Positions 2,923 to 53,126 of a stretch of DNA of 64,000 nt are shown piece by piece. Origin of the DNA: Phoenix dactylifera (Eukaryota > Streptophyta > Magnoliopsida > Arecales > Arecaceae); contig NC_052394.1 of assembly GCF_009389715.1 (NCBI RefSeq), forward strand, positions 24,055,399 through 24,119,398, in the 5' to 3' direction. The notes under the pieces were generated by a model. It worked only from the letters and a program-made list of their open reading frames with translations. It searched no databases and had not been told where the DNA came from. A program made the position numbers and the translations under genes. How positions within the stretch are numbered: the stretch's first letter is position 1; the number at the start of each line of letters is the position of its first letter.

Positions 2923-4880
2923 TCAATACAATCTTAGCATTCTCCTGGTGAATGAATGAGAACTCATGTGCCCCCCCTTCCCCGACCCTCCATTCCTCCG
3001 GCTGCTGCTCCGCATGGGTGTCAAGTAGAATCTTAGCAAGCCATTGTCGAAATGGCTTGGGGAGTACCTGGCACTCCGGTTCCTCTCCAACACAAACTCC
3101 TCCCTCCTTTTCTTCCCATGCCCATTGGTCTCGACGCCGCTCCTTCTCATGCTCCCAAACCCACCATTTCCATTGAATGAGCTCCTCGAGCTTACACTGC
3201 TGTTGCTCCTCAAAATCTTGCCACTATAACCACCAGCCCGCAGCTCGGGCCACGACTCCGAGAAGGATCTCTCAACCACATTGGCTCCTCCCTTGCTGCT
3301 GCCTCTCCGGTGTATAAACCCCCAAATGTTCCATGCCTTGCTCCACCTCTTGGACTTCTTTGTAGCACTCCCTTTACAGGAGTCCCTGTAAGCCGACTCA
3401 AAGCTCTCGGAGCGATCATCCCTCAACGAGTTCGAGCTCAAATCTCTTAAATCCCTATCAAGGAGGCTCCCCGGGTGGAAGGGAAAGAACTCGGAGCTCC
3501 CGGCTGGGGACACCTTGGCATTGGATGCTAGCTTCGGCTCGTTGATCTCGACCACCTGCTTCCGAACGGAATTCGACCGCTCGAAGCTTCGCCGGCGCCG
3601 GCTAGATGTGTCCGAGTAGTAGTCCCGGGTTTGGGTGGAGCCGCCCGGGGTCACGGCGTCATCCTCGACGGGGATCTGGCTGTCCGACCGCTGGACGGCG
3701 GGGGCGGGGGCGGGGGCGTCCTCCACGACGGAGAGCATGGGAGGAAGGCGGGGGAACACGGATCGGCCTCCGATGAGGTAGCCGTCCCACGAGGCCCTAG
3801 GCTCGTCCCACGAGAACCGGGGGTCGTCGAGGGACATCCGGCCGGCGTCGAGGGACATCCTGCCGGCGTCGAGGGAGAACCGTGGATCGGTGTCGCAGGA
3901 CCGCCGGCCGAAGGCGTCGACGGCGATCTCCGACTGGGTGTCGCGGAAGCGGCGGGAAGACTTGGGGGCTTCTCCGGCGGCATCGCTGCCGCCTTGCCCT
4001 GTTTCTTGAGCTTCTGCTTCCTCCGCCACTTCTGGAGCTTCTTGCTGAAGACGGAGGCGGCGAGCCAGAAGCTACCGGCGATCTCCTTGAGGTCTTTGGG
4101 AGGGAGCTTCTTGGCCTGGGCGGCGGAGTCGAGATCTATGTGGTCCTTCATCGGCTTCAGCTCCGCCTCCACCTGCTCTTCTCCCTCGATCTCCCCCGAT
4201 GTCCCCATTACCAGGACGGGATCCACGATCTTGATATCCTCCACATTGTCTCTCTCCTCCTCCCTCTCCTCTTCTTCATCCTCTTCGCGGGTTTCCAGGA
4301 CGGGAGCCGTGACGGAGGACGGGGGAGGAAACACGAGATTCCGGCACTCGGCCTCGATCTCTCCGCCCGCCGCGGCGGCAGCCGAAGAGGAGGAGGGCAG
4401 GGAGGGGTCCCGGACTCCTTGCTTATCCCTCTCGTTGTCGTCCTGGTGGAAGAGGGACCAGAGGGTGTTGCGGACGCGAACGTCGCAGGACTTGCGCTGG
4501 GGCTCGAAGGCAGCGGAGGCGCGGGGACCGGAGAGGCCGTCGCCGCGGCCGCAGGAGAACGATTTGCAGCGGCGGAGCTCCGGGCGCAAGAATGAGGAGG
4601 AGGTGGGCTGCGCTCCTCCTCCTCCGCCGCCGGCGGCCTTGTAGAAAAGGGATTTGAAGGCGGAGGAAGTGGACTTGCGGGCGGTAGTGGTGGTGGAGGA
4701 GGAGGAGGTGTCGAGGCCGGCGAGGCGCTCCCGGAGGCAAGAGGCGCAGAATCCAGTGACGTGCTCGTCCGGATGGAGGGGGCAGGAGGAGGCCGGGAGG
4801 CGGGGAGGAGGCGGTGGGAGTTGGTGATGAGTCGCCTGGACGTCGAGACTCATCATGGATGCGTCTCCTCGCCGTTGCAT
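2923..4880 (-). CDS. OPS: OCTOPUS / OCTOPUS-like (UPF0503, DUF740) protein, frame broken once
   Basis: OCTOPUS proteins are polar plasma-membrane-associated regulators of protophloem differentiation. The N-terminal frame (4880 down to about 3968) has the family Cys/His cluster (C33, H36, C45, C48 in CPLHPDEHVTGFCASC), FEPQRKSCDVR, ELKPMKDHIDLDS and SFWLAASVFSKKLQKWRRKQK. The C-terminal frame, ending at 2923, has FRDTQSEIAVDAFGRRSCD, two copies of the RFSLDAGRMSLD type, DEPRASWDGYLIGGR, MLSVVEDAPAP, RDYYSDTSSRRRRS, SFSESWPELR, and the terminal RMLRLY. Both halves are needed for one protein. They lie in different frames and meet at a run of five C (plus-strand G run 3964-3968). A sixth C would give one frame of about 652 residues, close to the 685 of Arabidopsis OPS. 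The cause is either an assembly error or a true one-base deletion. The gene appears intronless, as in its relatives. The start at 4880 is the most upstream ATG; 4856 or 4853 are alternatives. Confidence 0.92.
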
Positions 4881-6689
4881 GCGGTGGTGGCGGTTCGGCT
4901 TCTTCTCCTTCTTCTCCTTCTTCTACTACTACTAGTACTAGTTAATATTCTTGGCATGGTAACATCGGCGTTCCTCTCAAAATGTTTCTCGCTTCTTAGC
5001 TCTTCTTCTTCCTTCGACGCTCGTGGATTTTTGAGAACGGGAGGGAGGGGGGGAGGGGTTGTGGGAGTGAGGGTGAGGGGATTGGGTAAAGGATTTTTCA
5101 AGGAGGGGCGAGAGAGAGAAAGAGACTCGGAGGAGGTGTCCGTAAAGTGGGGGAAAAATAACTAAATGAATAAAAATCAGGAAAAGAGAAAAAGCAAAAG
5201 CAATCACGCTCCGTCTCCCCCCCATCTACTTTTCCTCCTTTTTTTTTCACTTTTTCTCCTTTCAAATTTCTTTCTCCCCATATTTTTTTGCCTTCCTTTC
5301 TTTTAAGGGCCCTTATTTATCACTTGATCCGCACGCTTTTTCTTTTGGAAGGATTTAGGACATGTCTTATTGAACCCAAAGGCTTTGCCCGAAATGTAGA
5401 ACCAGCAACTCTTTGGCATGTCGACCTACCTACTCGTGTAGGATAAAGTACTTCTTCAACCGTAAGACAAATGCCATTTAGAAAAATATTTGGCATCATT
5501 TAAATCTCCCAGCAAAAAAAGTTCGATTGTTCAGTTTCATTGCTAATTAGTATTTGATGCTATGTGCCATTAGTGAATAGAGAAATTCAAAAAAATAACT
5601 AAGTTTCCCATGGATCACACTTCTATTTAAAATTTCAGCGTTATTATAGCGTTGCTTCCAAAGAGGGCAAAATAATTGAAGTGTAATTGTCCCATAAGTT
5701 TTGTTACTGACAATTTATAAATAAGATATTAGATATAGAAATGGCAATCAATCAAGTAGCTATGACATTTTCGTATCACGGATTCATATTCTGCTAAGAG
5801 AAGTGTCCAACCCAGGCACCCAGGCAAATTAGCCAATTCTACGAACATGCGAAACCTACAATGCTTAAATACAGAAGTGGCTCAATAAATTTAGAGCCTT
5901 AGGCAAACTCACTAATAATAATAATAATAAATTTATTTAGAGGCCTCAATGCATTTATAGCTAAGAATTTTTTTTTACAGTCTCAATGCATTTATAGCTA
6001 ATAGAACTATTTAAGCTACGTATTACATTAAAAAAAAAAAAGAGAGTATGTATTTGAACTTGTTTATCTCGACAGATTCGATGGCAAGGAGAAAAATGGC
6101 TGCATGCACATGGTATTGATATTGTACCCTGGACACATTCAACTGCAAGGAGAGATGGGAAAGAACTGTTTGCCGTCCGGAAAGTATTGATAAATTTTTT
6201 GTCTTTATAATCTCTTTTTATTTGAGAATGCATTTTTTTTGCAGTTATATTATTATCGGTGCATTGAGTGGTATGGAGGAGGGAGGGGTAACCGAGAAGG
6301 AAGGGTACGCCCGTCAGTCCGTCAGCTGTCTGCCGTTCCTTGGTTTTATGCATGCGATCAGACGGCTAGGACGTGACTTAGATGCTGATACGAATAAGTG
6401 CAGCAGTGGGCCACACGTGTCTACCAATCCCGGGAAAAGGAAGAGAGGGCCTGGCATAATTCCGGAAGGACGGTCGTCCGTCACGGAGATCACATGATCT
6501 TAGTAAGTGCAGGGCTCACTGTTTGTCGCAAATTATGCGGGGAATGTGGTGCGGCGTCACGTGAGGAGGAGCACCATGTTTTAGTTCTAGCTTTCTCTCT
6601 CTTGTTCCCGGTTCCCCATCGCCTTGGGGCTCGAAGTAATAAAAGCCGCCTCCTGTCCTCCCATTCTCACCCTCGCTCCTTTCTTTCTT

Positions 6690-6743: not shown

Positions 6744-6745
<2 letters not shown>

Positions 6746-7447: not shown

Positions 7448-7505
<58 letters not shown>

Positions 7506-9100: not shown

Positions 9101-9739
9101 TTATGTCCATGGCTCTTGCTCTTTCTTGCTGGCACGATCGATGGCCCCCTCAATCCTGTAAATGCAAGACTTGTAGAGAAAGGCCAGGTAATCGATGATG
9201 GTTTCCTCTTGCGCCCCTTGTACGGGATCAAGTTCAAATGACCAGTCCACAAGAGTAGATTCTTCCCCATAATGTACGAGTTGCAGCGAGTTCACAGATC
9301 CATCGAGCCCCACATTACTCGCCTCCAAGCGATAGACATAGCTAAAAGAAGCAGGGTGCGTGAGAGCCAGCCTTTCCTTGATCCATGATCGTTCCCCATC
9401 ATCCCGAGGAAACATAAAGCCAGAGACCGGGGGCGAACATATCCAGGAACCCCTTCTTCTCCCTCCAATCTCGTGCAATTCTCTACCATAGGGCATAGGC
9501 ATCCATTCAGCAAGTCTGGAGCTTTGTGAGACCAAGGGCCAAACCCGAGCGATCGGCGCGTTCACTATTCCCCCAACTGACCCACGCCACTTGTCTCGTC
9601 TTCCCTCCCTCGCCTGCAAAACATGGCAGCCCAGGCATCGAACCCATCCATTAATGGATACATTAGAATCGAGTTTAATTTCGATCTTCCAATGAAGATT
9701 CTTTCCTTTGTTCGTAACTGGAGGCGAACAAAGAGACAT
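9101..9739 (-). CDS. lachrymatory-factor-synthase-like START/Bet v1 (polyketide cyclase/dehydrase and lipid transport) protein
   Basis: The protein belongs to the plant SRPBCC group related to onion lachrymatory factor synthase. Members bind small hydrophobic ligands, but most lack a proven reaction. Family landmarks are DKWRGSVGGIVNAPIARVWPLVS, then AEWMPM, SGFMFPRDDGERSWIKERL, FSYVYRLEASNVGLDG, LVDWSFELDPV and the closing helix YLAFLYKSCIYRIEGAI. The ATG at 9739 (MSLCSPP) gives 212 residues. Roughly 55 residues lie before the usual family start at DKWRG, and the frame stays open further upstream, so the start is uncertain. The stretch between AEWMPM and SGFMF is read one frame off the family sequence: the adjacent frame there reads MVENCTRLEGEEGVPGYVR, which is what relatives have. 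Two insertions (about 9486-9499 and 9426-9438) bracket it and cancel out, so the gene has no stop but an altered segment. Confidence 0.8.
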   Translation of the reverse strand: MSLCSPPVTNKGKNLHWKIEIKLDSNVSINGWVRCLGCHVLQAREGRRDKWRGSVGGIVNAPIARVWPLVSQSSRLAEWMPMPYGRELHEIGGRRRGSWICSPPVSGFMFPRDDGERSWIKERLALTHPASFSYVYRLEASNVGLDGSVNSLQLVHYGEESTLVDWSFELDPVQGAQEETIIDYLAFLYKSCIYRIEGAIDRASKKEQEPWT

Positions 9740-9910
9740 TGTGATGCTCGGCAGGGCATAGACACGACTTAACTTGTGAAGAATCGGCTGGCTATTCGTC
9801 TCGGCTATGCAGGTGGGCTCCTCGTTGGGACGTATTGCAAAGCTTTTGATAGGAGAATCTGGGTATTTGTCATATGGGTGATGGGTCGATGGGGGTCCCC
9901 ATTGCAGCAC

Positions 9911-9940
9911 TTTTACGGGGCTTTATATCGGCAATTTGGC
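9911..9940 (-). promoter_or_regulatory. candidate TATA box of the START-family gene
   Basis: On the minus strand, CGATATAAAG (9930-9921) lies about 180 bases upstream of the ATG at 9739. This is a suitable place for a core promoter if the leader is about 150 bases. The call rests only on motif and position. Confidence 0.35.
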
Positions 9941-12269: not shown

Positions 12270-15200
12270 TCAATACCTTCGAGAAGACCTGGAGGGTGAG
12301 GCCTGAAGAGCTTTGCCCTTCTTGTCATCATTGTCATCAGCATTTTTGTTGGCATCATTGTTATTGCCATCATCGTCATCTTCCTCAGAGTTGACCTCTG
12401 CAGATGGCAAGCTGCTCTGGTAGCTCATCCGTCTTGGAATAAAGACATTGAAGTAATACCTCACCAAATCTTGTCTGCTCTTGGACGTGAAACATTTCTC
12501 GGCGAGTTTCCAGAAAGTCATGCAATATGACTCAGGATTCAGTCTTTCAAGAGGGTCAATCGACATCTGCTCCCCATGTGTCCACAACTTGGAAACGTCT
12601 TCACCCATTCCATCAAATTCCCAACTGAAGAAAGCTTGACCCAAGTCAGACTGGAGTTGAAGTCTTGCAGAACTTACATGAGACCTAATGCAGGCTATAG
12701 ATCCTGGAGAGGCACAAGCACATGAGTCTGGCCTGCCTTTCCCAATCGTCACCTCACTTGTTCTTCTATCATCACTTTCTAATGGCCAGACTCTGGTACC
12801 CAACCACCTTGAATCATCCAAATCTTCGTTGTCCTCAGAAAAATCTTTCACACTGGGTAGGCCTGTCCACTCTAGAACATCAGCCTGAAAGGAGGCACCA
12901 ACTCCAATTCGCTTCTTGAGGGCAACAAGATGGCGTGCATTTACTTTCAGCTTTTGAGCTATTCTTGGAGATCTCCGTTGTGGCTGAATTACGGCCGCTT
13001 TCCGTCTCTTCCGTGCTTGTTCTGAAGACTGCTCATCATTTGTCCGGTTCATCCGAACATGCAATTTTTCATTTCATCATGGCGCCAAAACAATAATCAT
13101 GTCAAGAATGCAAAAGGGACAATTTCAATAAAGGCATGAATTCAGAAAGATAACTTCCCACCATCAAGAGAAAATGCATGGGTCAATCAAGTAGCTGAAA
13201 GCTCGTGAAAAGACACAGCAAAAATATTGCAGCAGAAGACGTCCAAATGAATATAAATTTCAACCCAGTTACAAACAAAAGATCCTAACAAACATATTTG
13301 AACATGTAAGCAGGAACTTCATCACAACAATAGGAGCTCCAAGAGTTCGCAAAGGAGATTTCTATGACTATAATTCCTCAAATCTATGGGAACATCCTGA
13401 GAAAAGCCAAAAATAGGCATAATGATTTCACATGCATGCAAGCATGCTTATCCACAAATCTAGGCCTACTGCAAGAAATGGGTACTGATATATGATATAT
13501 TCCTTCCGATATTTATAAGTTTGACTTGTCTTTTTCAAAACATATTTATGCATTTCTAATGCATGCTCAGAGCAGCATTTTTACATGTACAAAATAATTT
13601 AAAAACTGTTCATTTGCCAAAGGAAGCATAACACAGCATGCCACAAGGCCCTGTTCATCATTTCATCCATATTCTGACAGATACCTCCCCCAAGGTGCAG
13701 TGCACATTTGCATGGTGTTTGCTTTCTTGTACGAACATCAATTTTCATAAAACAAGTCATTTTTCAGGAGTCACTGGAGCAAATTCAGTTACCCCAAGGG
13801 CATTTCGTCCTAATACAGGAACAGATCTTTCTTATTACAAAGAATGTTAAGAAGGCATCAGAACTGGCAGAAACATTGTGCTAAACTAAAAATCGATAGA
13901 TTTGAATAGATGATGGCGAAAAAGGCCAGTTCTCCTATCACAGTACAACCAAATGGATGTTGTTCTGCTTGTTCTTGCGATTAAAAATGCATGACAAAGA
14001 AATTTTCTCAAATAATCGTTATCCATCATTTATCTTTGTCAAGGTCAGAGATGCAGTTTAATGCTTAAAGTTATACAGGTAAATAAAAACAAAATAAATG
14101 TCAGTAAAATCTATCAGGTTAAATTTTCAACTAATCATACAAAAACAAGTCAAAAGAAAATCATATAACAATAATAATAATAAGATAATGAACTCACAGA
14201 TGCACTGTTACAAATCCTAATATGATCAACGGTTTATAATCTATATTTAAGCATGAAAATGAACAGCTTTATATGTGAGTAAGCCAAGTTTAAAATCAAG
14301 AAGCATGCATGAGTGTTTCAACAAACGAATTGTCAGTTTAAGTACGCAAGTTAAAGAATAAAGCAGTAGAATTTATAACACCACATGGACATTCTGATGC
14401 ATCAACCAAATATCTAATTACCATTACTCTTGCAGGCACAAATTGCTTTACTGGCATGCACTTGAAGCAAGTCTCGCATCAGCCAAATGATGTGAAAAAG
14501 GAGACTCAAGTATTGTCACAACTATGTTTCTAATAATGCCATTGTAGTTATGTAAAGGCATCAAAATGTCTATTGATTGTTAGATGCCATAAATAAAAAC
14601 TTACAAGAAAACTATTGTATGCATTACATTGATTATGGTGATATAGCAGTCTTTATTAAATTTTATAATAGGAATAACATGTAATAGCAGCATGTGAGAA
14701 TGTAATCTGACTTTATAACCATGAGTGGATTTGTTTTGTCCGATATATATATAAACTTGTCGAGATATTAATATAAAAAAACTTAAAAGTATTCCATGAT
14801 AATGGTCATATGTGGTTATGGTGGATGATGTTTTATTTTGGAATTTAGATGGATGTATAATAACATAACAGAAGTACCCAAATTTTTATGATGATTGTTT
14901 TAATGTTATAATGAAATCTTGTTGAAAACATGGTCACAATAGGGCAGCACTAGTAGAGTACTATTGATAGTTCTTTAGGTTCTTTTCCACATTATCATTC
15001 TTGTCAAGTTACATCTGGAAAAGCTTCTCTTTTTTTCCGAAATTTCCCTTTTCCTTCCCATCCCATTTTATGTTTGTGCTCATACAGTTTCTATTCAACA
15101 CAGACACAACTCAAATGACAAGGATAACCTTACATGTATACATCTCCCATGAACTACTAACTAGTATCACAATGGGATAGGATCTACCATTAGAATCAAA

Positions 15201-18200
15201 ACCCTAGAATTTTCGTATAATACAATATCTCCTTTGCAAACCTTCATGTATCACTTCCAGATCAGGAAAAACTAAAATCCATATAATAAAATTAAAACCC
15301 AAGAGATATTGTAATGGCCTAGGCCCACAGTCCAACCCACCATATGGGACCACCTTTAATGTGCTGCCCCATTTTTTCATCACGGGCATGCGCCATGTGC
15401 GCATTTCTTGCCCTCACCGTCCACCGTCTCTCTCTCTCATCTCTGTCTCCCTCTTTCTCCAGTCTTTCTCTATCTTTCTTTCATTATCCTACTCTCACCT
15501 TCTCGCTCACTCTCTCTCACACACACACTCTTTTTCTCTCTCCCTCTCATTTCTTTCTCTCGGTCTCTCTTTCCCTCACTAACTTGTTTTTCTTAATGCT
15601 CATCTGAAACTAGCACTTTTGAAAAGAAAAACAAGAGGAAAAGCCAAGCAATTTAAGCCATCATCATGGTCAAACCTCAATCCTTTCTCCATGTCAAATT
15701 TTTGGCATTGTAGGAGTAAATCTAGGTGGGTTTAGGGTAAGATTTAATTTCTTAAACTGCAAAGATATTGGATAAAAGTGGATTATGGTAGAGTAAGTAT
15801 GTGTGTGTTTTGATGGTGATATCAGAGCAGGTAGGTACAGCCCTATTTCAATCCAAAAATTATAACTTGAACTTCGGTGGGTATCTTAATCTTAAACATT
15901 AACTGAAAGTTGTTAATTCATGAACCAATAAACCTGATAAATTAAGAATTTTTGGAGCATGTTTGCTTAGTCAATTAAATCGTTAAAATGACCTGACGTG
16001 CAATGAAGGGCAAAACGGAACGGAGCACTAACATTGCATTTTATTAAATCCTTACTTAGATATAGTATTTTAGTATGATTTTTAGTGAGATTGTAAGAAT
16101 AATGTTTTGCTTTGAACTTGGAAAATTTCAAGCATTGATTTAGAAGGGAAGTATGGCAAGTTGCTAGATTATCGCAGTTGTCCACAGAATAGGGCTAATT
16201 ATTGCACTACTTAGATGTAGAATTAATTTCTAAAAATGTTTTGTTTTGAAAATAGGATTAGTATATTTCTTAACTGCAAAAGTTGGTGATTTTATGATTC
16301 TCACATAGGAAGAAATGAACTTTTCATTTGGATCAGCTTGTAGCAATATAGACTTACAAATTGGAAAAATTTAAAACCAGTAGCAAGGTTCGCCATCTCG
16401 ATACCGGACCCTGTATAAATTAAGAATTTTTGGAGCATGTTTGCTTAGTCATAGCCAGAAATGCGACATGTGATTGATGCCAAGCCACGAGGAGCGGGCA
16501 TGATTGGGGCTAAGTTATCCAAAAGGTTATTCTATAATTTGGATTGTGAGTATGGCTGATTTGGAACTTGGTGAAATTGCATGATTTTTCAATTATCCAT
16601 AGTTGAATCGGTAATTCAACTATATATTACTGTATTTCTTAAATACTTCTCGAAAAAAATCCTCATATATATACATATATATTTGATCTAAATTAAATTA
16701 TAGGAGTGTATGTGGGATGCTTCCTAGGTTATCATGCTCACTGCCTTGTTTTCTCTTTCATTGTACAGATACTACAGGCTGGTGGGGTATTATTTGGGGA
16801 GTGACTAGGAGCCAGGCTAGTTGTTTTGTAATGTAAACTTCATCTTTTGGATAGGAAATATGCCTTATAAATTAGTCTAATTTTGTTAGTAGTAATAGGT
16901 ATTTGCATCTAAAATTAGGGGTGTGGTAACTCAAATGCTATTTGGATACTTGTGTGTTTGAACCCATGCATGACAAAATGTTTAGCACACTGGTTTCTAA
17001 TGAACTATTTCAAATCCAAGTTAGCGGTTGGTTTGGTGAAAGGCACAATTGGTTAATTATAAGATGAATATTTGGTTCTATAACTTTTGTTATCTATATG
17101 AATTGACTATGGAATTTTAAAAGCCCTTGCATATTTCAAGAGGTTAAGTCTTAAGGAATATGCAGCCATGTTGCATGCCTGGTTTCATGTGATTGGGGTT
17201 TGGGGCATGACGCATATAATTTAGATTTATAGTATTTAACCAAAAAGATTGAAATATATCGAGTAAAACCATAATCTACAAAAAGGCTTTAACAGACATC
17301 ATCCAGAGCCAGGTGAGACCCGCCAATCATGTTAAGTCCAAAAGAAAATTCGAAAAGAAAGTTTCGGTCGGGACGACACCTGTACAAGAAAATTCCAAAA
17401 GATGCCCCATCATGTTAAATTTCTGGAATATGCCATGTCTACAGTTCATCATATTCATCCGTGGATAGATCGACTATCAAAAGACAGATGCAAAATCTTA
17501 AACCGAGCGACCTAATTTCTTGTTACCATTTTCAGTAGTTCTATTACCTTAACCTATCATGTACACAAAAAAGAACACGACAGCGCGAGCAAAGATGAGA
17601 TCAAAACTATGGTAAAACCACTGGAATTTCACAGCAAACAGAGCATAAGAACATGTACACTCATGTTTCTTCAAAGATCGCCTGAGGATACTTTAGCGAA
17701 AAGAAAAAAGATTACCTCAGGATACGAAGGAAAGTCCTCGACATTAGCGAACCCGGCCGAGCTCAGGTACATAGTACGCCGCGCGATCAGCACCTTCTGC
17801 AGCCATTCCCCTCCTCCTCCTCCACCGCCGCCGCCTCCAGTCATTCCACAGAAGGGGTTGGCGGCGCAGGTTCTCACCAGCATCAGCATGTTCTCGAAGT
17901 CCCTCTTCCTCTTCTTGGAACCCGGCGACCCCGGCGAAGAACCCAGAGTCCCCGCCTCCTTCAACCTGTCCATTCTCTCGCTCACAAGCTCGCGGATAAG
18001 CGCTTCGATCCTCCTCCTCAGACCCGGGCACAAAGAAAACCTCCGATCGCACGGACTCCCTTCACCGCCCCCGCCCAAGAACCTCTGGACCCAGCGCTCG
18101 ACGAGATCGGAGCGGAGCGATTCGAACCCTGGGCTCTCCGGCGAGGAATCTACGGCGAGAGTGGCGGAGATCTGGTCGAAGTGCCGCCGGAGCTCGGTCT

Positions 18201-18300
18201 CGGGGTCGGCGAAGGCGGGCGAGAGAGAAAGGCCGTTGCAGGGGCTCAAGAGGGGGGAATCCAGAGGGACACCGTCAAGATAAAAGGATAGGCCGGCCAT
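12270..18300 (-). CDS. ELM2- and SANT-type nuclear protein of the plant ARID1/2-related family, lacking ARID
   Basis: This is a probable chromatin-associated protein. Exon 1 (18300-17716) encodes 195 residues from MAGLSFYLDGVPLDSP. It includes SKKRKRDFENMLMLVR and EWLQKVLIARRTMYLSS, a pattern also present before the ELM2 region of plant ARID1/2 proteins, and ends at a GAG|GTAATC donor in phase 0. Exon 2 starts near 13028 after a GATGAGCAG acceptor and ends at a stop at 12270. It holds a basic stretch (QARKRRK, QPQRRSPR), an ELM2-like block (about residues 236-310: GVGASFQADVLEWTG, WLGTRVWPLE, IGKGRPDSC), a SANT-like block (about 341-398: FWKLAEKCFTSKSRQDLVRYYFNVFIPRR) and an acidic Glu/Asp/Asn tail. 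The joined length is about 447 residues. The acceptor lacks a strong pyrimidine tract, and a small extra exon inside the intron cannot be excluded. No ARID DNA-binding domain is seen. Confidence 0.78.
13029..17715 (-). other. 4.7 kb intron of the ELM2/SANT gene
   Basis: This is AT-rich sequence between the two coding exons. It contains a CT-rich pyrimidine tract (about 15420-15580, with CA steps), an exact 37-base direct repeat (15937-15973 and 16415-16451) and many short frames without motifs. No transposon protein was recognised. A small unrecognised exon could lie inside. Confidence 0.55.
15937..16451. repeat. pair of exact 37-base direct repeats 478 bases apart
   Basis: The segment beginning ATAAATTAAGAATTTTTGGA and ending TTGCTTAGTCA occurs at 15937-15973 and again at 16415-16451 without a mismatch. 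The sequences on either side differ. The pair is too long for an ordinary target-site duplication. A local duplication or the ends of an old insertion are possible. Confidence 0.85.
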
Positions 18301-20708
18301 CGGAGTCCGGTGTTCCGCGGGGCTATAAGACGGAGGGAGGAAGGCGGGATACCGCAGTCGAGAGGGAAGGCAAGTATGTCGCTCGTTCGGGTTCCGGTGA
18401 CCGCCGAGGAAGGGGGGTGTTTTGGCGCCTATTTTACTCTTTTTGGCGGACGCTTCGTTCTCCTCGTGCTTACTGAACAGGGGAAGTTAGTTTTGCTCAA
18501 AGACTGAGATCATAAATAACACCCGGAGATGATGACTAGCATTAGCGAACGGAACAAGATCTGAAAACACACATGTTTGCCTTTTCGCTTCGTGTGGCCA
18601 ATCATAGCCGTTTGATCAGATCGGAAAACGGCCCATACGTGCGTCGGTTCCATTTGTTTTGGAGGGGGCCGGGGGCTAGGATTTAGGACAAGTCACAGTT
18701 GCGGGATCCGAATTGTGATACCCAGGAGAGAACAGCCCCGCTATCCGGAATAGCAATGTCTACACAAGTAGAAACCAGTGCCGGTAGAACAAGAGAAATT
18801 GGGGGAACAAACTTTGGTTTCCTTTTAGGCAGAATATTTCTTAATCCGGACACCTTAGACCATAGTGGTACAGAGTATACCGGATTGTTCGTCGAATAGG
18901 AAAGGGGCAAGAAGTCGATAAAGCTATTAGAAAAAAGGTTGGACAAGATTGATGCCTTGCATACGGCATGAGACACATATGGAGAGAGGACACTAAAAAC
19001 ACCTTCCCATTTTGATGTTGGTCAACCTGAGTCCTTTTTCCTTTAAACAAAATATACCCAATGGTCGATCATTAGTCATTCATCCAGAGTTATAGAAGCA
19101 AGCTAACTTAGATGGAGCTTATACAGGATTACGACCGATCCATGATTGGAATCAGACTATATAAGACAAGGTCTGAGGTTTTTGTAAAGGTTGGCTGATC
19201 TTTACTGCTACCGAAACCAAGACACCTTAAACATCGTCGAGTTGCAAGTAAGAATACATCATATCATAGAGAAAATGACCCGGTTTAGCTGACTGTTTCA
19301 TCCATCTAATATCTTACATATGAGCAAACAACAATCTGAAGCTTTTGATGCATTTTCATTAAAAAGTAATATGAAAAAATTATATGAAATGCCTGAGAGT
19401 CATTGTAACATTGGGTTCTCAACAAAGCATGAATGACGACGCGACATGAGGGAAAAAAATCAGATAAAAATAAAAATACTTTATTATTATAAGTAACGAC
19501 TGTTCTATTTCAAAAAGAAGTCGGTCTTAGAAAGCTGCAGCAAAGATTGATGTCAATTAGGGCCAGACCCCAAGGGGTGCAGAGGTTTGGTCTGGACCAT
19601 GCTTTCTTTCCTTGTCCTAAGAAAGGACAAAGAGCATGGAGACGAAAAGGGCCAGGGGGAGAAATACTCACATCGCGACCAAGAGACTCATCACCAGTCA
19701 CCGCTGCATCTCTTCCCTTCGGATCGGGTGAGCCCAACAAATGGTTGGGAGAGAAGGGAAAAGGACTCCCACCGCTCCTGAGATATCAAAGCCCGCAAGC
19801 TGCTTGGTTGGTGTAGGAATGCCCCAAATGATCCTATAATGGTTTTATGCAGCAATAAACCATGAGATGCACATGAGAAAGGGGAAAGTGTTTAAAAAAA
19901 AACAAATGAGAGGAGATGGATGAGATTTGAGGGTTTGAATTTGGACGGTTGTGAAAATCTTTGCATGGTGATGAGGTGGTGAACAAATAATATAAAAATA
20001 AATAGAAAATGAAACTTTAGGGCAAGGATTTTGTGTTTGGAATGTTAAGGGATAACCATGCCCTTGTGTTATGACGATTCTTTCCTCCAGATATAATAGA
20101 CATGTTAGACCAAAGGCCAGAAAGTGTCAGCCTTATCCATGGCATCAAGCATGCACTTGCTAATTTTACTCGATTGACCTCTCCCCTCCATCATAACATA
20201 TAGTTATTAGGTAATTTTACTTTGTTCTCCTTGAAAAGGGGGTTCTAGTACGCTTGGATGTTTCAAGCTGGATAATTGAGCTGCTATTTGTGATGTCTTT
20301 ATATGAAATAATCCCATGTGCTCTTAAAGGTCTCTTTCTTTTTCCCTTTCTTCTTTGTCTATATGCAGCATCGATTGTTCTAGCACCTCATCGATTATCA
20401 AATGAAGCATTTGTTTTATTTTATTTCGTACCCAATTCGTTGCTGGATCGGGCACAACCTAATTTCTAGTCTTTTCTTTCACTTTCGAATGAATCTATGA
20501 AACGAGGCAGATTTATCACACCATGCAACCTTCTATTTTTTTTATTGCTGAAAGGTGGCATGAGGATGTTTATCTACCAGTGGTGTGCTGGCGCGGCGAG
20601 GACTGAGGATTCCTGCGGCTTGCATGACATACTCGGCGGAGGAGGATGTTCCTGCGGTTCCTAGATCAGATATGGAGGTGTGCTTTGGATCGCCCTGACC
20701 AGTGGTAG
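18301..20708. other. upstream region of the ELM2/SANT gene, then spacer
   Basis: The first few hundred bases are GC-richer and should contain the promoter and leader of the minus-strand ELM2/SANT gene. Beyond about 18550 no gene is evident. Frames at 19510-19816 are open on both strands, but I see no family motif in them. The region from about 20590 is probably the left, more decayed part of the RNase H LINE remnant. Confidence 0.4.
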
Positions 20709-30674: not shown

Positions 30675-33572
30675 TTACTGTGATTCAAAGTCTTTATCTG
30701 TTGTCTTCTTGTAAGTGTACCACTTGGCGATCCAGAGGTAGACTCCAAAGTTCAGAAGGCTGAGTATGGCCAGGAGCCAAAAGAAGTAATCAAGGTGGCC
30801 GCGGTTAAGATTCTCAGGAATCCATCCAAGCCTCCCATTCTTGGTGGTAATGTCTGTGACGATCGTGACAAGCAGCGTGCTCAAGTAGTTACCAAGTGAC
30901 ACTGTGGTAAGCGAGAGCGCAGACAGCAAGCTCCTCATGGCATCAGGTGCCTGATCATAGAAGAACTCCAACTGACCGATAAAGGTGAACACCTCCGCGG
31001 CCCCAATGATGAAGTACTGCGGGATCTGCCAGAATATAGACATGGGCACATAGCCATCATAGTCATATAAACCATCCCTTCCTACAATGCGGAGCCTCAC
31101 CACCTCCAGAATCCCAGCAGCCAACATGGAAAATATGGAGATGGCCAGGCCGATGCCCATCCGTGTCAGCTGAGTAAAGCCCCGCTCGTGACCGGTGAGC
31201 TTGCGAGCCACTGAGACTATAACGCGATCATAGATTGGAACCCAGACAATAACACTGATTGTGTCGAAGATGGAGAGCGAAGCAGATGGGATCTTGAAAT
31301 GGGGACCCATGTGGGGATCCAGAGTATTGCCTTGGAGAACAAACATGGTGCTCATCTGGCTATAGACAGTAGAAAAGATGATGCCGGTGGCCCATATAGG
31401 AAGAATTCGCACCACGCTCTTGAGCTCCTCCACTTGGGTGACTGTGCAGAGCCTCCATGGGTCCACTGGATCCTTCATCTTGTCATCTTGAGTCACCACA
31501 GCTGCCTTGTCAAGGAATCTGAGAAAAACGTATAAGCAAGGATGCATTACAGGTGCACCTCGAACATGTATACAGAATTTTACTTAAATCAGCTCAAACA
31601 CGCGCAAAAGTTTCAAGAGGTTTCACACACAAGGCACCGTTTGTTTCTTGCCATTCCACTCAATAAGCAGTCATATATTTCCATCCTAAACTAGTTTTTC
31701 TGCTAGAAAATTACATTCTTCTAAAACTTCCAGGGGAAAAAATCCTGGCATGAAAAAAAGGTACCTGCATCAGTTGTATTATTGTGCATGCTCCTTGCTC
31801 TCTGAATTTTGACTAGGTAAGGAGTCAACAATTCAGAAATATTATTTTTTTCTATAGGAAAATGCAAATTATATCTTACTGAGTTTCTTTTTCTTTTTCC
31901 TTTTTCAAATTATCAAACTGAAGTGTCTCCAAACAATGAAACAATAAATCTTCCATGTGTGAATTTGATGATGATCGATGCAGAAAATGATTTTATTAAC
32001 CTAGTCTCACATAAAATACAAGAGTCATCAAACTCAAAAGACCAAAAACGACACTACCCCAAATAAGCCCAATCTATGCCTTAAATAGAAATGCAATTAC
32101 GACCAATCTCATCATAACCAAGAAATTAAGTAATGACTGTGCCTTTTGTCATTCAATCAGTCATCAAAAATGTATGTTAAAGAGTCTAATGCGAACCAGC
32201 TTTCCAACTACCCCAGAAAAGAAGGAAATATTTATGTGTAATAAGTAAATGGAGATAGATTGGAAAATCTAGAAGCCTGGAAAGAAAAAAGAATTTTACT
32301 CATAAGAAACTATTTGATAATTGCCTTGATAGAGGACGCAACCCTTAATTGGAAGGAATGCCAAGAAGAATTCACAAAGCCAAACCCAAGGAGATAGGAG
32401 GGATCCTAAGTCAAAAGGATGGATGCAGCACTTGTAAATGTGGCTAACCTACATAGGATGTAAGAAATCGACAATAAATAGGCTTGTTTCAGTAAACTTA
32501 CTTAAACTGGTCCGTGTGCTCAAGCTTACGGCTACCTTGTATCACAGATTCCTTCTCTGAAATCTCATACAGTGAAGATTTGTCATGGGGTAGGTTCACT
32601 CCATATTTCCTAAAAGATGCCACAACAACCTGGGCAATGCGTGTAAGGGGGCTTCCTCCAGGTTTCTGGTGTCTGTATAATGCTGTGCCCAAGAAGAAGC
32701 TCACAACCGCAATAGCCATTACCACTGCTGGGATTCCAAAGCCCCAGCCCCATCCTACATTGTTTTGTATCCAGACCAGCACTGAGGAAGCAACCAGGGC
32801 CCCAATGTTGATTGAGAAGTAGAACCAATTGAAAAAGGAGCTCTTTCTTTTCTTCTCAGATTCATCTGATTCATCAAATTGGTCAGCCCCAAAGGAGGAG
32901 ACACAGGGCTTGATTCCTCCAGTACCTAATGCAATGAGATAGAGTGCTATAAAGACCACCGCAGTCTGAGCATTTGTTGGATCGCAGACACCATTATCGC
33001 AAGAAGGTTTCAGCCCATTGACAGATGATGTCATAGTCAATAATGTCAAACCCTGCAATCAAGGTAGAAGATCAGTTTTTATGTTTTGAGGGTTCAAGTT
33101 AAGAATAGATTGGAGGGTTCTTCAACTTTCTTACACTGATATAAACTATCATGAAACTGGCAATCGTCCAATATCGTCCAAGGTAGGCATCGGCCAAAAA
33201 AGCCCCAAGCAAAGGCATGATATAGCATGTGCCTGACCAGTTAGTGACATTATTTGCTGCTGTAGTATTGTTTTGGTGGAGACGGTCCTTCATGTAGTTT
33301 ACCAGATTGGTGCTCATCCCATAATATGCCAATCTTTCACAGCATTCATTTGCTGCAAAGTGATTAAAAAAACATTGGTATTTAGATGATGATGCGAAAG
33401 AGAAAAGGAAAATAAAATGAGTTATCTTTATAATACATGGCACAAGGACTTAAGATATACCAAGAATGTAGGGGCACGCCCTCCAATTCCCAGTATCCTT
33501 CTTCACAGCAGGGTTTCCACGAATATCTGTCGTCCCATCTTTTGTGTACTTATCTTCAGCTGCTTCCCTCAT
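30675..33572 (-). CDS. NPF8: NRT1/PTR family transporter, subfamily NPF8 (peptide transporter type)
   Basis: A proton-coupled oligopeptide/nitrate transporter of the POT family (major facilitator fold, 12 membrane helices). Four exons fit exactly: 33572-33461, 33352-33135, 33052-32502 and 31518-30675. All have GT-AG borders and consistent phases (1, 0, 2), giving 574 residues, a normal family length. Diagnostic features are the N-terminal [39 protein letters not shown] with the ExxER proton-coupling motif (E40, E43, R44), [29 protein letters not shown], the PTR signature [33 protein letters not shown], and in exon 4 [40 protein letters not shown], and [18 protein letters not shown]8 members typically move di- and tripeptides, so a peptide substrate is inferred. 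The frame is intact. The start MREAAEDKY matches the normal NPF8 N-terminus. A short upstream frame and a LINE insertion lie close upstream. Confidence 0.96.
31519..32501 (-). other. intron 3 of the NPF8 gene
   Basis: 983 bases between exon 3 (donor TTTAA|GTAAGT) and exon 4 (acceptor TTTCTCAG|A). AT-rich, with no recognisable insertion. The two shorter introns are 33134-33053 and 33460-33353. Confidence 0.9.
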
Positions 33573-33811: not shown

Positions 33812-34364
33812 CGAGAAAATTAGAGTTTTTCTGTGGCTTGCACTACGGAATAAACTCCACACAGGCAAAATTTTAGCAGAGAACGGTTGGACTGGTAATA
33901 TCGGATGTTCTTTATGTGGTAATAGCACTGAGTCGGTTAATCACTTGTTCATGAGGTGTCCATTCTCTAAAAGCATTTGGTCCACCATAACCCAGTTGAC
34001 TTTAAGGGGGTGGCCGGCGAACCTTCATGAATTATGGACACAATGGAAAGTCAGACATCGACAAAGATTGGGTGGAAGAGCAGGCGATCAGCTTCTTGCA
34101 GCTGTTTGTTAGGAGATATGGAGAGAAAGGAATGAGAAAATTCTTCTTCGAAGAAACCGATCCATTTATCCAGGTAATCCACACATTCTGTGGCTGGGAC
34201 TGTTTATGTACAGGAAAAACAGCCGAGACACCAGCAACAGTTGAGGAATCTAGTCTTCCCCTGTACATTCTTCTGTTCTTCTCTCTGTTTGTAAATATCT
34301 GATTCCTTTAAATAAAATTGGCGTGTCGCTGCTGGCTGCTTCCTTTTCCAATTAAAAAAAACCA
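33812..34364 (+). mobile_element. 5'-truncated LINE fragment (zf-RVT end) with target-site duplication
   Basis: The plus strand reads KIRVFLWLALRNKLHTGKIL, then CSLCGNSTESVNHLFMRCPF and SKSIWSTI. This is the zinc-binding tail of plant LINE reverse transcriptase (zf-RVT, with the C-x2-C...H-x4-C pattern). The 3' part ends in an A run near 34353-34361. Nearly identical 17-base sequences, AACAACTATTTG(G/A)TGTC, flank it (33795-33811 and 34365-34381), so the 553-base insert is well bounded. It sits 240 bases upstream of the NPF8 start codon, in the opposite orientation. Confidence 0.88.
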
Positions 34365-37279: not shown

Positions 37280-37530
37280 TTTAGTGCTATTTCAAAAAAA
37301 ATTATATTTAGTGATCGATTGGATTCAGAAAGTAGATAGATATGATTATGGTCATCCTCTCATCCGAGATATGCGTAGACTGGCTCAGAAGATGAGCGAT
37401 ATTTAGACAGCATATGTGTTCAAAAAGACGAATAGGAGAACAGACTGGATCGACTCCTTTGTCGTCCGGTACTCTGAGAAGATTTTTTGGACATTCGGTA
37501 GATTTTTTTTTTTTTTTTGTTCTTTTTACT
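37280..37530 (+). mobile_element. LINE RNase H remnant (short, decayed)
   Basis: Plus-strand sequence reads VIDWIQKVDRYDYGHPLIRD, then MRRLAQKMSDI, and past a stop TAYVFKKTNRRTDWIDSFVV and SEKIFWTFG. It aligns with the end of the RNase H domain at 26100-26370 (VIDWIRN, GHPLISDIHRM, NKAADWIVFF). A long T run at 37503-37518 follows at once. It is the third copy of the same LINE type in this window, all on the plus strand. Its boundaries are approximate. Confidence 0.7.
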
Positions 37531-37978
37531 TTCTAATTTGGCAGGGTGTAAATTACTATTTTAAAAAAAAGAGATAAAAAGAAAAAAAAAAAAAGAAGAA
37601 GAAAGAGTACTCACGTCACCATGAAAGCAATCTTTTTCCCATCCTTATTACACGTCTAACATTAACATGAGTACCAAAAACGTTCTAATCGCCATTGTAA
37701 CGCTTATAACACTGACAATTGAAATCTTGGTTTCGGGGAAAAAAAATTACAAAGCACTTGGCCAGGTCATGGACCCATCCCATATCGTCCCACTTCTTGC
37801 GTTCACGGGGGACAAACACCGGACCATGACTAGTTTTGAGCTTTCCCGGAATGTGGATCGGAGTGCCGGCGCTTTTATCTTTTGGTTGAAAAAAATACTA
37901 TTTTGGCTTCGTTTGTTTAGAGCATTTCAAAATTTGTTGTATTTTATTTTTTTTAATATATTTATACTAGGATACAGA
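37531..37978. other. spacer, no gene seen
   Basis: A-rich sequence followed by part of a 152-residue open frame (37667-38122). The first part of that frame has no recognisable motif, while its end belongs to the PPR fragment listed next. Confidence 0.35.
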
Positions 37979-38385
37979 AAGGTGGAGGAAACTCCTCGGA
38001 AGCAATCAAAACAATCATCTAGACCTAACTCCACGGTGCCTGAGTCCCCACCTGAAGATGCTGATGAAACTTTCGAGAAAATAAAAGGAGACGGGGCTCA
38101 TCCCCAATGCAGTTGCCATGCTTGATGGGCTCTGCAAAAATGGATGGGTTCAAGAAGCAATGAAGCTATTTGGGTTAACGCGCGAGAGGTGAACAGTGCC
38201 TGATGTTGTGACTTATGCAACGGTTGGGGAGGGGTTCTGCAAAGCAGCAAAGTTTGACGACGATCGTGCCAAATGCCTTTATCTATGCAGTTCTGATTCA
38301 AGGCTTGTGCAAAGAGGGGAAATTGGAGGATTCTGTCGAGTTCTTCATTATTGGAGATGTGGGATGTTGCCGCTAGAATCGAACT
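37979..38385 (+). pseudogene. fragment of an At4g38150-like PPR gene
   Basis: Pieces on the plus strand read KVEETPRKQSKQ, PESPPEDADETFEKIKGDG, then in a second frame GLIPNAVAMLDGLCKNGWVQ and EAMKLFGLTRER up to a stop, then PDVVTYATVGEGFCKAAKFD, then NAFIYAVLIQGLCKEGKLED with SVEF. From memory this matches the small Arabidopsis PPR protein At4g38150, whose repeats include the same LIPNAVAMLDGLCK phrase. The frame changes near 38095, 38192 and 38270, one stop lies at about 38190, and both protein ends are missing. It is therefore a dead copy, distinct from the PPR pseudogene at 23 kb. No A-tail or target-site duplication was found, so I cannot say how it arrived. Confidence 0.8.
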
Positions 38386-40107
38386 GTACTTGGAGCTAAG
38401 ATCAGTAAGTGTATCGATTTGAGCTCTAGAGTTGGTGGAAGCGTTTTGTGGCAAATAAACTTGAGCTCGGGCATAATAACCTCAAGTAAATCTCAAAATA
38501 GGAAAGAAAGTTTTCTTGCAGGAGACCCTCCAATACTTAAATTAGTTGGATTTTTTAGAAAAATAGTAAATGGTTTAAGAGGGAGTCAAAATATTAGGAG
38601 AGAGAATGGAGAAAAGAATATACCTAATGGTCCTTCATTTCTCCTCTTACATAGAGAGGGTCGGTGTCCTCTTATATAGCAGCTGCCTCGTCAGGCACAT
38701 GGTAACAATCGTTCCGATTGTGCCGAGGTCGTGGCTACGTCCTTCATAGACATTCACTATCTTTAAAATAATGGACTTAAGTAGGAAACACATGGCTTTT
38801 CCCTATTGCTCAGTTTGGCTAGGATGGTATTTCAGCTAACTCTAACGTAGAACACGTCGGCAATACCAAGTTTAGGTACCTTGACCAAGATCAAGACCAG
38901 GTCGATGACTATATACCACATCATGAGATATTTACCAATCGTGACAACCTTAACCGATTTGGTTGATAGGTATTGCAGGTGGTGTGGCGTTGGGAGCTTG
39001 GTGAGAATGAGAACTTTTGAGGGAGAGAGGTTTTGCTATGGATGAGAAAGCTGTTAGGGAGCATTTGGATAGGAAAGCCTCATTCTCGCTAAATTCTAAT
39101 GGTTTGGGAGGCCATCTTTGGAAATAAGAACTTGCATTATAGAGGAGAGGCGGTGGGGAGGAGGAAGAGCGCTCTTTTGTTAGAATTTCGCTAGGAGAAC
39201 CATGTCAGCTTCCATTTGTCTCAAAAAGAAAAAGGAGAAAGAGTCCATATTAGACAACTACTCCATATCAACTCATAAGCAGGCACATACGATGAGCTAT
39301 ATCTAAATTGGAAAAAGGGTGGACTATATTATAGCAATATGCAAAATACGGGATTGATATTGCAGTAGTAAAAAATATAGAATAGTATCTGTAATTCTAT
39401 GTGGAATATGAGGTGGTATTTTTTTTTTAAGTCTTTTCTTTTATAGGGATTCCTGGGCCATGAAAGAATTTTGGTGTCCGGTCAGCGCTTAAGCCTTTTA
39501 AAAGGGCTTCAGCTTCAAATTGAGCGACACTCTTCCATTCAGTCGGATATGGGACACTGAAGAGAACGTAGTGTTCCTATGAAGCGGTGGGACGGTGACG
39601 GAAATTGATTATACTGACCAGTCAAACCCAGTGCTTTAAAAAATGGAAGCATTGAAATCCGATCATTAATATTGGAAGTCCGTTGAGTTGTAGCCTTGGA
39701 TCGCCGTGTGAGGCAGTGGTGGGAGAATGCGACGAAGGATGCCTTGTTTGCTGTGCCGACAGTCACAGGCAGAGGATGAGGAAGAGTAACGACTAACGAG
39801 GAAGGTGAGACGGCCAAAAAAAAAAAAAAAGTGTAGGACTTAACTGATAGGAAGTCACACTGGTTTAAAAATCTCTCCCACTCTATCGTTGAGCCTAACT
39901 CGACGCTGGTTGTGATCGGACTAAACCGATCTCTTATATTTATTTCCAGTTTTCGGACGATTATTTTTTGAGAGGAAGTTTTTGGACGATAATGAAGGCA
40001 TGGAGCCAGTGATCAGATTAGGACTAACGAATGACCTATGCATGTGATCTAGTTTTCTTATTTTTCTTTTTCTTCCCACGATTCTTAAAATACAATATAA
40101 AAATATA
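38386..40107. other. spacer, possibly old transposon debris
   Basis: About 1.7 kb without coding signal. The part at 38420-38950 has phrases reminiscent of non-coding ends of plant transposons (a short TATATAG-type box near 38671, GGTCGGTGTCC). I cannot classify it. A 15-base A run lies near 39815-39830. Confidence 0.3.
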
Positions 40108-43294: not shown

Positions 43295-45864
43295 ATGTTG
43301 TCCTTTATCAGAGCCTTGGTGCTGGCGGCATGCTTGCTTCCAGTGCTCGTTAATGGGAGGACTCGACACTACAAGTTCAATGTAAGTAGTTGCCTTCCAA
43401 ATCCAACCTCGGTGGCATTGTAAAGGTGCAGCCATGAAATTTGCTGACAATATGTCATGCTTCGTTGTTTCTGCATTAATAACTTCTCGATAGATCCCGA
43501 CTGCGTCGCTGGTAGTGGAGAAGATGCACTATATTAATTGCATGCTTCGTTAACCTATGAGTATTACATACCCAAGTAAAACATTAAAATTAACTCTCTC
43601 TTTTTTTAAAAAAAAGACTGTTATATCTAACAATGCCCATACTTTTTGAACTTTTTCTCTAATCTTTTACCTTTTGTGACGAAAGTCTTCCACATATTCT
43701 TATTCATGACCCCACATCCGTTTTCCATAAAACTTTCCATTTTCTGAGGGGACGATCCATTATTTGGGCCGGTAGGCCAGCCCAACATCTGACCATAGTC
43801 AAAAGCTAATCATGGATCAGCTTTAATTTTAAACTACCACGGCGGGCCTTATGCAGGTGGTGATGAAAAATGCGACCCGTCTCTGCTCCACCAAACCGAT
43901 CGTGACCGTGAATGGCCGATTCCCAGGCCCGACCCTGTATGCTAGAGAAGGCGATAATGTGCTCGTCAAGGTTGTCAACCATGTCAAGTACAATGTTACC
44001 ATCCACTGGTGAGTACTCTTCATCCTCGTGGGGATCGAATCACAAAACGGCTCACTTAAGACAGATGATAAAAAGATTTTCCGAAGTAATGAGGCGTCGT
44101 AAATTGGGCCTGCAGGCACGGAGTGAGGCAGCTTCGGACGGGTTGGGCCGACGGGCCGGCCTACATCACTCAGTGCCCGATTCAGCCAGGCAACAGCTAT
44201 GTGTACAACTTCACCATCACGGGCCAGAGGGGCACCCTCTTCTGGCATGCGCACATCCTATGGCTCAGGGTCACCGTTCACGGTGCTATCGTCATCTTGC
44301 CCAAGCTCCATGTTCCCTATCCCTTCCCCACTCCACATAAGGAGGAGGTCATCATCTTGGGTAAGTCGACACCTCGTATCATTTACGAATTATGAATCCG
44401 ATCCTCCCTGATAAAATTACAATTGGCAGAAAAGAGGTCAGTTTCCCACTAATAATGGTTTCCTTGCTGCAAACTCCAGGTGAATGGTGGAAGTCGGACA
44501 CGGAAGCCGTCATCAACCAGGCTCTGAAATCCGGTCTCGCACCCAATGTCTCCGATGCTCACACGATCAACGGTCATCCAGGCCCTATGTCCGCTTGTCC
44601 TGCTTCCAAAGGTAGTATGCATGCTTGGGTTTTTTTTTTGTTCTTCCCGGAAGAAGGGATTCATTCATCAGTGGCAAATGCACCTTAAGCAGTTTCGTCT
44701 GATGTGGACCTCGTTGCAGGGTTCCAGCTAAAAGTGGACAGCGGCAGGACATACATGCTGCGAATCGTCAACGCTGCTCTCAATGAGGAACTCTTCTTCA
44801 GGGTGGCCGGCCACCAGATGACCGTCGTCGAGGTCGATGCCACCTACACCAAGCCCTTCAAGACCGACACCATACTCATCACCCCGGGCCAGACCACCAA
44901 CGTCCTTCTCACCGCCGATCAGGGGGCCGGCAGGTACCTGGTCACCGCCTCCCCTTTCATGGACTCCCCGATCGCGGTGGACAACCAGACCGCCATGGCC
45001 GTCGTGCACTACACCAACACCGTGGCCGCCTCCGCCCTCACCGCCATCAAACCACCACCTCAGAATGCGACCCCTGTCGCCTCCAACTTCATCGATTCCC
45101 TCCGCAGCCTAAACTCCAAGCAGTATCCCGCCAGAGTGCCATCGACGGTGGACCACTCCCTTCTCTTCACCGTGGGTCTGGGCGTCAACCCGTGCCCGAC
45201 GTGCGTTAATGGGAGCCGGGTCGTGGCCGACATGAACAACGTGAGCTTCACCATGCCGACCACCGCCATCCTCCAAGCTCATTATTTCAACGTAAGTGGG
45301 GTGTTCACCGACGACTTCCCGGGCAAGCCGCCGATAGCTTTCAACTACACCGGCAGCGGCCCCAGGAACCTGGGGACCATGACCGGGACTCGGGTCTATC
45401 GCCTTCCTTTCAATTCCACCGTGCAACTGGTTCTCCAGGACACGGGGATTATCGCACCGGAGAACCACCCCATCCATCTGCACGGCTTCAATTTCTTCGC
45501 GGTCGGAAGGGGTCTCGGGAATTATAATCCAAAGAGGTCTCCCTCCAAGTTCAATCTCGTCGATCCCGTTGAAAGGAACACCATCGGAGTCCCCTCTGGG
45601 GGATGGACTGCCATAAGATTCAGGGCGGATAACCCAGGTCTGTAAAATGTTCGCAAATCATCATGTTATATCAGTTAGTGAAGGAGTTTTCAGCCTGGAT
45701 ATATATAATTCTTATGCTTTGCCGTGGATGCAGGTGTTTGGTTCATGCATTGCCATTTGGAGGTGCACACAACGTGGGGGCTAAAGATGGCGTTTGTGGT
45801 GGACAACGGGAAAGGGCCGAACGAGTCTCTGCTACCGCCCCCGAAAGATCTTCCACCTTGTTAG
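43295..45864 (+). CDS. LAC: laccase (blue multicopper oxidase), secreted
   Basis: Laccases oxidise monolignols and other phenols in the cell wall with oxygen. Six exons join exactly: 43295-43381, 43857-44008, 44116-44360, 44480-44611, 44720-45637 and 45734-45864. This gives 554 residues with GT-AG borders throughout. The signal peptide is [20 protein letters not shown]. All copper motifs are present: HWHG (79-82), WHAH (123-126), HPIHLHG (455-461) and HCHLEVH (517-523). The residue ten after the last Cys is Leu (528), the class of medium redox potential. Domain landmarks are [50 protein letters not shown], the exon 4 [15 protein letters not shown], and [20 protein letters not shown]. The exon layout is that of plant lignin laccases. 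Exon 5 carries a near-perfect miR397 target. The nearest relatives I recall are LAC4 and LAC10. Nothing is missing. Confidence 0.97.
44766..44786 (+). promoter_or_regulatory. miR397 target site in the laccase mRNA
   Basis: The 21 bases encoding the IVNAALNE segment are complementary to miR397. Against the canonical target there is one mismatch (opposite miRNA position 9) and one G:U pair (opposite position 20). miR397 is known to repress lignin laccases in plants. The mismatch near the cleavage site could weaken slicing. Confidence 0.75.
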
Positions 45865-51900: not shown

Positions 51901-53126
51901 ATGGTGACGAACTCTTGGATGGAAGTTCTCACCCCAAGGGCCCCGTACTTCCCCAACTCAAGTTGGCTTCCCGGCCCGAAGAGGAGCGGGGCTTGGACCC
52001 AAGAGGAGAACAAGCGCTTCGAGGATGCCCTAGCGCGCTTCGACAGGGACACCCCCGACCGATGGGAGAGGGTGGCGGCCATGATCCCGGGGAAGTCGGT
52101 GCGGGATATCATCTCCCATTACAAGGACTTGGAGGACGACGTGAGCCACATAGAAGCTGGGCTGATCCCGTTTCCTGGCTACAGCTCTTCGTCTTTTACG
52201 TTGGATTGGGAGAACAGCCATGGGTATGAACGGTTGAAGCCATCCTACTGCGTCGGCGGGAAGAGGTCAGGAGGGAGGCCGGATCAGGAGAGGAAGAAAG
52301 GAGTCCCTTGGACTGAAGAGGAGCACAAGTAAACTCCCGTTTAAACCCCGTTTGTCATGGCATTTTAACATGATTGCATGTGTTTGAGAAGATTATACCA
52401 TGTACATCATCATCTTTAATTATTATTTCTTTTTTTTTGGAAACTAAAATGATGTGATCTTGCAGATGCTGCCCTTGTTTTGATAATTTACTAATGTGCA
52501 TTTAAGTATCCATCTATGTTTTGATCTGGATGCAGGAAGTAGTCCTTAAGAGGGACAATGGGATTTTTACGTTTGATGTTAGTTCTGATACTAGCTTAGT
52601 TTGTTTCTGGGATCATATTTGCTGATGGTGAAAAATTTTGCTTGGCAGGCTATTTCTACTGGGTCTCCAGAAATATGGGAAAGGGGATTGGAGAAACATA
52701 TCACGCAATTTTGTCACCACCAGGACGCCTACCCAAGTGGCTAGCCATGCACAAAAGTATTTCATCAGGCTCAATTCAGGTGGAAAAGATAAGAGGAGGT
52801 CCAGCATCCATGACATCACGACGGTCAACTTGCTGAACAATGGGCCTCCTTCACCATCTCAGGCATCCATGCTTGCCAAGCGATCGAGTTCTGCTGCTAC
52901 CACTGGAATCTCTGACCAGTTCTCGGTCATAGTCGATTCAAATCAGCCTAATGAAGCAGCTGCTGTCTTTAGCCCATCGGCACATGGTAATCCATTCATG
53001 CACCCACCTTATGAAATTACTTCATATGGGATGAAATTACCAGCTCAAAATTCTCAAAGGGGCATCCTTCAAGATTCAATGGTTGCAGACCATAGTATGC
53101 TATTTCAAATGCACCCTCATGGATAA
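51901..53126 (+). CDS. DIV: DIVARICATA-type MYB (SANT + SHAQKYF) transcription factor
   Basis: Two exons, 51901-52328 and 52649-53126, joined in phase 2 (donor CACAA|GTAAAC, acceptor TTGGCAG|G), give 301 residues, the usual family length. The N-terminal SANT/MYB-like domain spans about residues 30-82 ([39 protein letters not shown]). The linker has [14 protein letters not shown]. The second, DNA-binding MYB repeat spans about 134-186 ([40 protein letters not shown]) with the plant motif SHAQKYF at 175-181. It is followed by the conserved [16 protein letters not shown]. Family members bind I-box/GATA-like sites and, with RADIALIS-type antagonists, set growth patterns. The nearest relatives I recall include At5g01200 and At2g38090. 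The gene looks intact. Confidence 0.95.

Follow-up and report, generated by a model that had tools for sequence, protein, structure and literature searches.

A date palm neighbourhood of OCTOPUS-like, NPF8, laccase and DIV-type MYB genes that likely predates the monocot-eudicot split

Long-lived gene neighbourhoods are a known phenomenon in flowering plants, and the palm locus described here is a new example of it rather than a new kind. We analysed a 64,000-nucleotide stretch of the date palm (Phoenix dactylifera) genome (contig NC_052394.1, here called C3; C3:24055399-24119398), referred to throughout as the window, in which an OCTOPUS-like (OPS) gene, an NPF8 transporter gene, a laccase gene and a DIV-type MYB gene lie in this order across ~50 kb. 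Members of the OPS family are phloem regulators, NPF8 proteins transport di- and tripeptides, laccases take part in lignin polymerisation, and MYB proteins act as regulators.

The closest described arrangements are found in Arabidopsis, for which we relied on published locus names, with rising locus numbers standing for gene order. In the set At5g01170-At5g01200, At5g01180 is NPF8.2/PTR5 (PMC12780319), At5g01190 is LAC10 (PMC9940878), and At5g01200 is listed with At2g38090 and At5g58900 among the DIV1-type R-R MYBs, DIV1 forming no clade in the larger tree of the same paper (PMC5618610). The first locus, At5g01170, has the motif LRRTKSFSA in common with At3g09070 and At2g38070, all three being called glycine-rich proteins (PMC2978106). 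A second set, At2g38070-At2g38090, comprises a gene called OPS-like (At2g38070, PMC9893790), LAC4 (At2g38080) and a DIV1-type MYB gene, while the pair At5g58900-At5g58910 consists of a DIV1-type MYB gene and LAC16 (PMC9940878 for both laccases).

The four date palm genes were located in the window as follows (positions count from its first base):

2923..4880, minus strand: OCTOPUS-like (DUF740) gene, intronless; PF05340 in two overlapping frames, with a one-base frame break at ~3968
30675..33572, minus strand: NPF8 transporter gene, probably PTR1/PTR5-type; exons 33461-33572, 33135-33352, 32502-33052 and 30675-31518; 574 aa; PF00854
43295..45864, plus strand: laccase gene, probably LAC4/LAC10-type; exons 43295-43381, 43857-44008, 44116-44360, 44480-44611, 44720-45637 and 45734-45864; ~554 aa
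51901..53126, plus strand: DIV-type (R-R) MYB gene; exons 51901-52328 and 52649-53126; 301 aa; two Myb_DNA-binding matches

The gene models of the NPF, the laccase and the MYB are complete. An original prediction, made from the letters of the window, had named these four genes in this order as intact or nearly intact; its span (2923-53126) proved exact, and 'nearly intact' amounts, for OPS, to one frame break. The parallel it drew with At5g01170-At5g01200 was also borne out, with the same families in the same order, three of them identified by the published names given above and At5g01170, the weakest link, by its motif and, beyond that motif, by a presumed OPS-like identity. The palm set shares with this Arabidopsis set all four families and their order, and the NPF and laccase subfamilies agree by yardstick sequences that are unverified. 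It differs in its 50-kb extent and in enclosing further genes and pieces of retroelements, and the MYB genes are compared at the level of the DIV type only. For PTR5, LAC10 and At5g01200, the palm counterparts are thus indicated by position as well as by sequence.

We regard it as highly probable that the block is a retained ancestral neighbourhood (microsynteny), kept passively and made up of genes that work separately. An OPS-like gene, an NPF8, a LAC4/10-type laccase and a DIV-type MYB would already have been linked in the common ancestor of monocots and eudicots, and whole-genome duplications would then have copied this linkage, which would persist at the window on C3 and, as regards at least three members of the set, on a second contig, C12. 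Insertions of transposons and other DNA would have stretched the C3 block to its present ~50 kb. Slow rearrangement would most likely account for the passive persistence of the linkage. Any regulatory link would at most tie laccase to MYB, the genes otherwise functioning separately.

The spliced model of the NPF has four exons with GT-AG borders and a complete open frame; against Arabidopsis sequences that are unverified, its product showed 69% identity to PTR5 (566 positions) and 62% to PTR2 (530 positions). Among eight other palm NPF loci, four (L004-L007) were clearly closer to this PTR2 sequence (65-73%) than to that of PTR5 (56-64%), and the other four (L001-L003 and L008) were below 50% to both. 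The laccase begins with a signal-peptide exon (43295-43381), the sole start returned by a scan for hydrophobic starts, and contains all four copper-ligand stretches (HWHG, HAH, HPIHLHG and HCHLEVH). It scored 603.8 bits with neighbouring matches in frame against TIGR03389 (cut-off 558.9), matched the Cu-oxidase domains as well, and had as its nearest solved chain 6klg, named laccase. Its identity was 74% to LAC4 vs 56% to LAC17, again as unverified sequences. Though not verified, these yardsticks give widely differing identities, and they favour a PTR1/PTR5-type NPF and a LAC4/10-type laccase. In the MYB model the second repeat reads VASHAQKYF, and we take SHAQKYF to be a class mark of DIV-type (R-R) MYBs.

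The OPS gene matches PF05340 at essentially full length (profile positions 4-624), split over two frames of the minus strand, 2926-4071 (positions 278-624) and 3654-4922 (positions 4-287). On another contig, C1250, the match is unbroken and the copy has an open frame of 652 aa; the sole length difference of the window's coding region from this copy is one C fewer in the run of Cs at ~3968. A pseudogene reading of the window copy was rejected, given that the lesion is only a one-base difference in the length of a C-run and that the four other strong OPS copies are free of stops within the match. The OPS proteins of the window, C1250 and C12 carry LRRCKSFSC at the place that corresponds to the Arabidopsis LRRTKSFSA.

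The recurrence of the arrangement elsewhere in the date palm was assessed with profile searches over the assembly (773,078,369 bases in 2391 contigs). The DUF740 profile gave 17 matches, of which six were strong and represented five genes (the window gene in two pieces, C1250, C12, C13 and C3:0.6M), the remaining eleven scoring at most 46 bits. On C12, OPS (725574, minus), NPF (769061-770494, minus) and laccase (780341-781953, plus) repeat the order and orientation seen in the window. On C1250, a contig of 87,389 bases, OPS (67362, plus), NPF (37496-39728, plus) and laccase (23997-26006, minus) form its mirror image. DNA identity between C1250 and the window was 99.5% across 4822 nt around OPS, and C1250 is most likely the window's other haplotype because of this identity. 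With nearly the same spacing in addition, we rejected C1250 as a third independent block; it is probably an unpurged haplotig, in which case gene-family surveys of this assembly would include the same OPS, NPF and laccase a second time.

Could all three blocks be assembly duplicates, making the recurrence within the genome an artefact? The near-identity of C1250 to the window around OPS and the origin of the assembly from a phased assembler that produced haplotigs (PMC6794320) are in keeping with such a view. Yet the artefact is likely for C1250 only: the C12 and C1250 OPS proteins are 86.5% identical, with a synonymous divergence (dS) of 0.32 between their genes, and OPS and laccase stand 55 kb apart on C12 vs 42 kb, which makes an artefactual origin of the whole pattern extremely improbable. 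Across the OPS copies, dS was 0.32 for C1250-C12, 0.35 for C3:0.6M-C13 and 0.46-0.54 across these pairs, so that the copies form two pairs of more recent origin, which an older event connects. We infer from these values that the younger event may correspond to the palm duplication and the older one to an earlier monocot duplication. DNA around OPS that is alignable between C3 and C12 was considered as a sign of regulatory constraint and set aside, since at a dS of 0.32 unconstrained DNA would align too.

Members of large families sometimes meet, and both NPF (at least 74 loci) and laccase (at least 36 loci) are large families in this genome, the counts being lower bounds from match lists collapsed by hand. 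The palm and Arabidopsis blocks might thus have been assembled independently, by chance co-location. Among the listed loci, however, laccase-NPF pairs closer than 120 kb were found only in the three blocks that also bear OPS (window, C12 and C1250), which count as two independent blocks if C1250 is a haplotig. By comparison, sequence no more than 60 kb from a laccase makes up 0.42% of the genome and sequence that close to both a laccase and an NPF 0.04%, and the co-location exceeds what chance would give. With the same subfamilies also standing in the same order in both lineages, independent assembly is very unlikely. As a separate observation, contig C3 carries 13 of the 36 laccase loci in the list, with clusters at C3:23073359-23157392 and 23772565-23783529, ~0.3-1 Mb from the window.

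The second Arabidopsis set agrees with the palm block in part. The original prediction had cited At2g38070-At2g38100 as a related set with an OPS-like gene, LAC4, a MYB and an NPF. The first three stand, and At2g38070-At2g38090 have OPS-like gene, laccase and DIV-type MYB ordered as in the palm, but no NPF8 lies between them. The next gene, At2g38100, which follows the MYB instead of standing between OPS and laccase, is NPF5.5, a member of another subfamily (PMC12780319), and stands 'far' from other members according to PMC3017762; the NPF identity is corrected here. In At5g58900-At5g58910 the MYB adjoins the laccase by locus number, like the palm pair, which suggests that laccase and MYB form the most durable part of the block. 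At5g58930 is presumably a further OPS-like member, although the papers listed by our literature search do not name it as such, papers using that name alone being outside its scope. In Arabidopsis, AUX1/LAX, GPAT and other genes flank the block.

The linkage is likely to predate the monocot-eudicot split, as the original prediction proposed, given the match in order with At5g01170-At5g01200 and the recurrence of OPS, NPF and laccase in a palm duplicate. The comparison comprises one outgroup, seen through locus names, and a single duplicate in the palm that covers three members of the set.

Several observations weigh against this age and continuity. The Arabidopsis match is drawn from published locus names and numbers, At5g01170 being matched by a short motif and otherwise presumed to be OPS-like. 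The recurrence on C12 stands on OPS, NPF and laccase, at least three of the four genes, and its origin by whole-genome duplication would follow from dS. At the older duplication level the arrangement is eroded: on C13 a laccase lies 44 kb from OPS in the opposite relative arrangement, with the nearest listed NPF 3.7 Mb away, and at C3:0.6M the nearest laccase and NPF are 231 kb and 170 kb from OPS, respectively. In rice, the laccases LOC_Os01g63180/63190 and the R-R MYB LOC_Os01g63460 (PMC5618610 for the MYB) are 27-28 locus numbers apart and give only hints of linkage, and a candidate counterpart formed by LOC_Os02g46420 (DUF740) and LOC_Os02g46460 was rejected, the latter being named OsNPF7.9, not an NPF8 (PMC4176842). 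A literature search for At5g01180 and At5g01190 named together found none, and a limited search for the block itself listed one paper, on poplar single cells, a result that does not show the block to be undescribed.

The erosion on the older OPS copies also speaks against a strong force holding the genes together, and bears on a further explanation, in which selection maintains the linkage through enhancers or chromatin common to laccase and MYB, and perhaps OPS, as a vascular regulatory domain. Among genes activated by Eucalyptus xylem NACs, LAC4 (AT2G38080) is up in all four columns and the neighbouring MYB gene AT2G38090 in three of the four (PMC6054625). AT2G38090 also appears as a transcription factor in a candidate cell-wall gene set (PMC3463447), and a listing of genes co-expressed with candidate secondary-wall transcription factors includes LAC10 and LAC4 (PMC3677987). 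On the other side, the mid-block gene NPF8.2/PTR5 is listed for ovule and pollen (PMC12780319), OPS-type genes act in phloem (PMC9893790), other genes and pieces of retroelements separate the palm genes, which are dispersed over 50 kb, the two older OPS copies (C13 and C3:0.6M) no longer have the arrangement, and neighbouring genes can respond alike by chance. We therefore hold a regulatory domain to be unlikely. The original prediction held that the adjacency of phloem and xylem regulators invites a search for shared chromatin control; for the entire block, the sources cited here do not support such control. The Arabidopsis data show no single programme for the block, and LAC4 with AT2G38090 is at most one lead, from one pair in one species. 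A narrower version seems to us similarly doubtful: laccase and MYB would be a vascular unit older than the monocot-eudicot split, held together across repeated genome duplications by selection on shared xylem-NAC-responsive cis-elements, and OPS and NPF8 would be bystanders. This pair is nonetheless the only part of the block for which shared regulation merits testing.

Within the passively retained neighbourhood that we favour, the four genes are neighbours but are not adjacent, because OPS and NPF are separated by at least a START/PYL-like gene, an open reading frame with a sub-threshold ELM2 match, and pieces of pentatricopeptide repeat (PPR) sequence and of retroelements. The following features were recorded between these two genes:

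9104-9922, minus strand: open reading frame of 273 aa, apparently intact; Polyketide_cyc2 (START/PYL/lachrymatory-factor-synthase-like), E 2.8e-07
12273-13073, minus strand: open reading frame with an ELM2 match below threshold (15 bits, cut-off 21.7)
17674-18486, minus strand: open reading frame without a Pfam match
20933-21169: piece of a reverse-transcriptase element, RVT_3 below cut-off
22953-24829, plus strand: PPR repeats across several frames, either a PPR gene in decay or one whose introns went unrecognised
28891-29328, minus strand: gene-like open reading frame of 146 aa that has a charged start and contains hydrophobic stretches; nothing matched in Pfam at E 1

The open reading frames at 12273-13073 and 17674-18486 are possibly exons of one ARID/ELM2-type gene. 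Another piece of a reverse-transcriptase element (33786-34109, zf-RVT, E 2.7e-16) is situated upstream of NPF, ~200 bases from its start codon. Scans of the window for tRNA genes and Rfam families returned no match. Beyond the MYB gene, the window contains a GC-rich tandem repeat at 59861-60067, with three copies of a 69-base unit of which the third has diverged, and a run of exactly 100 N at 61584-61683 that marks an assembly gap.

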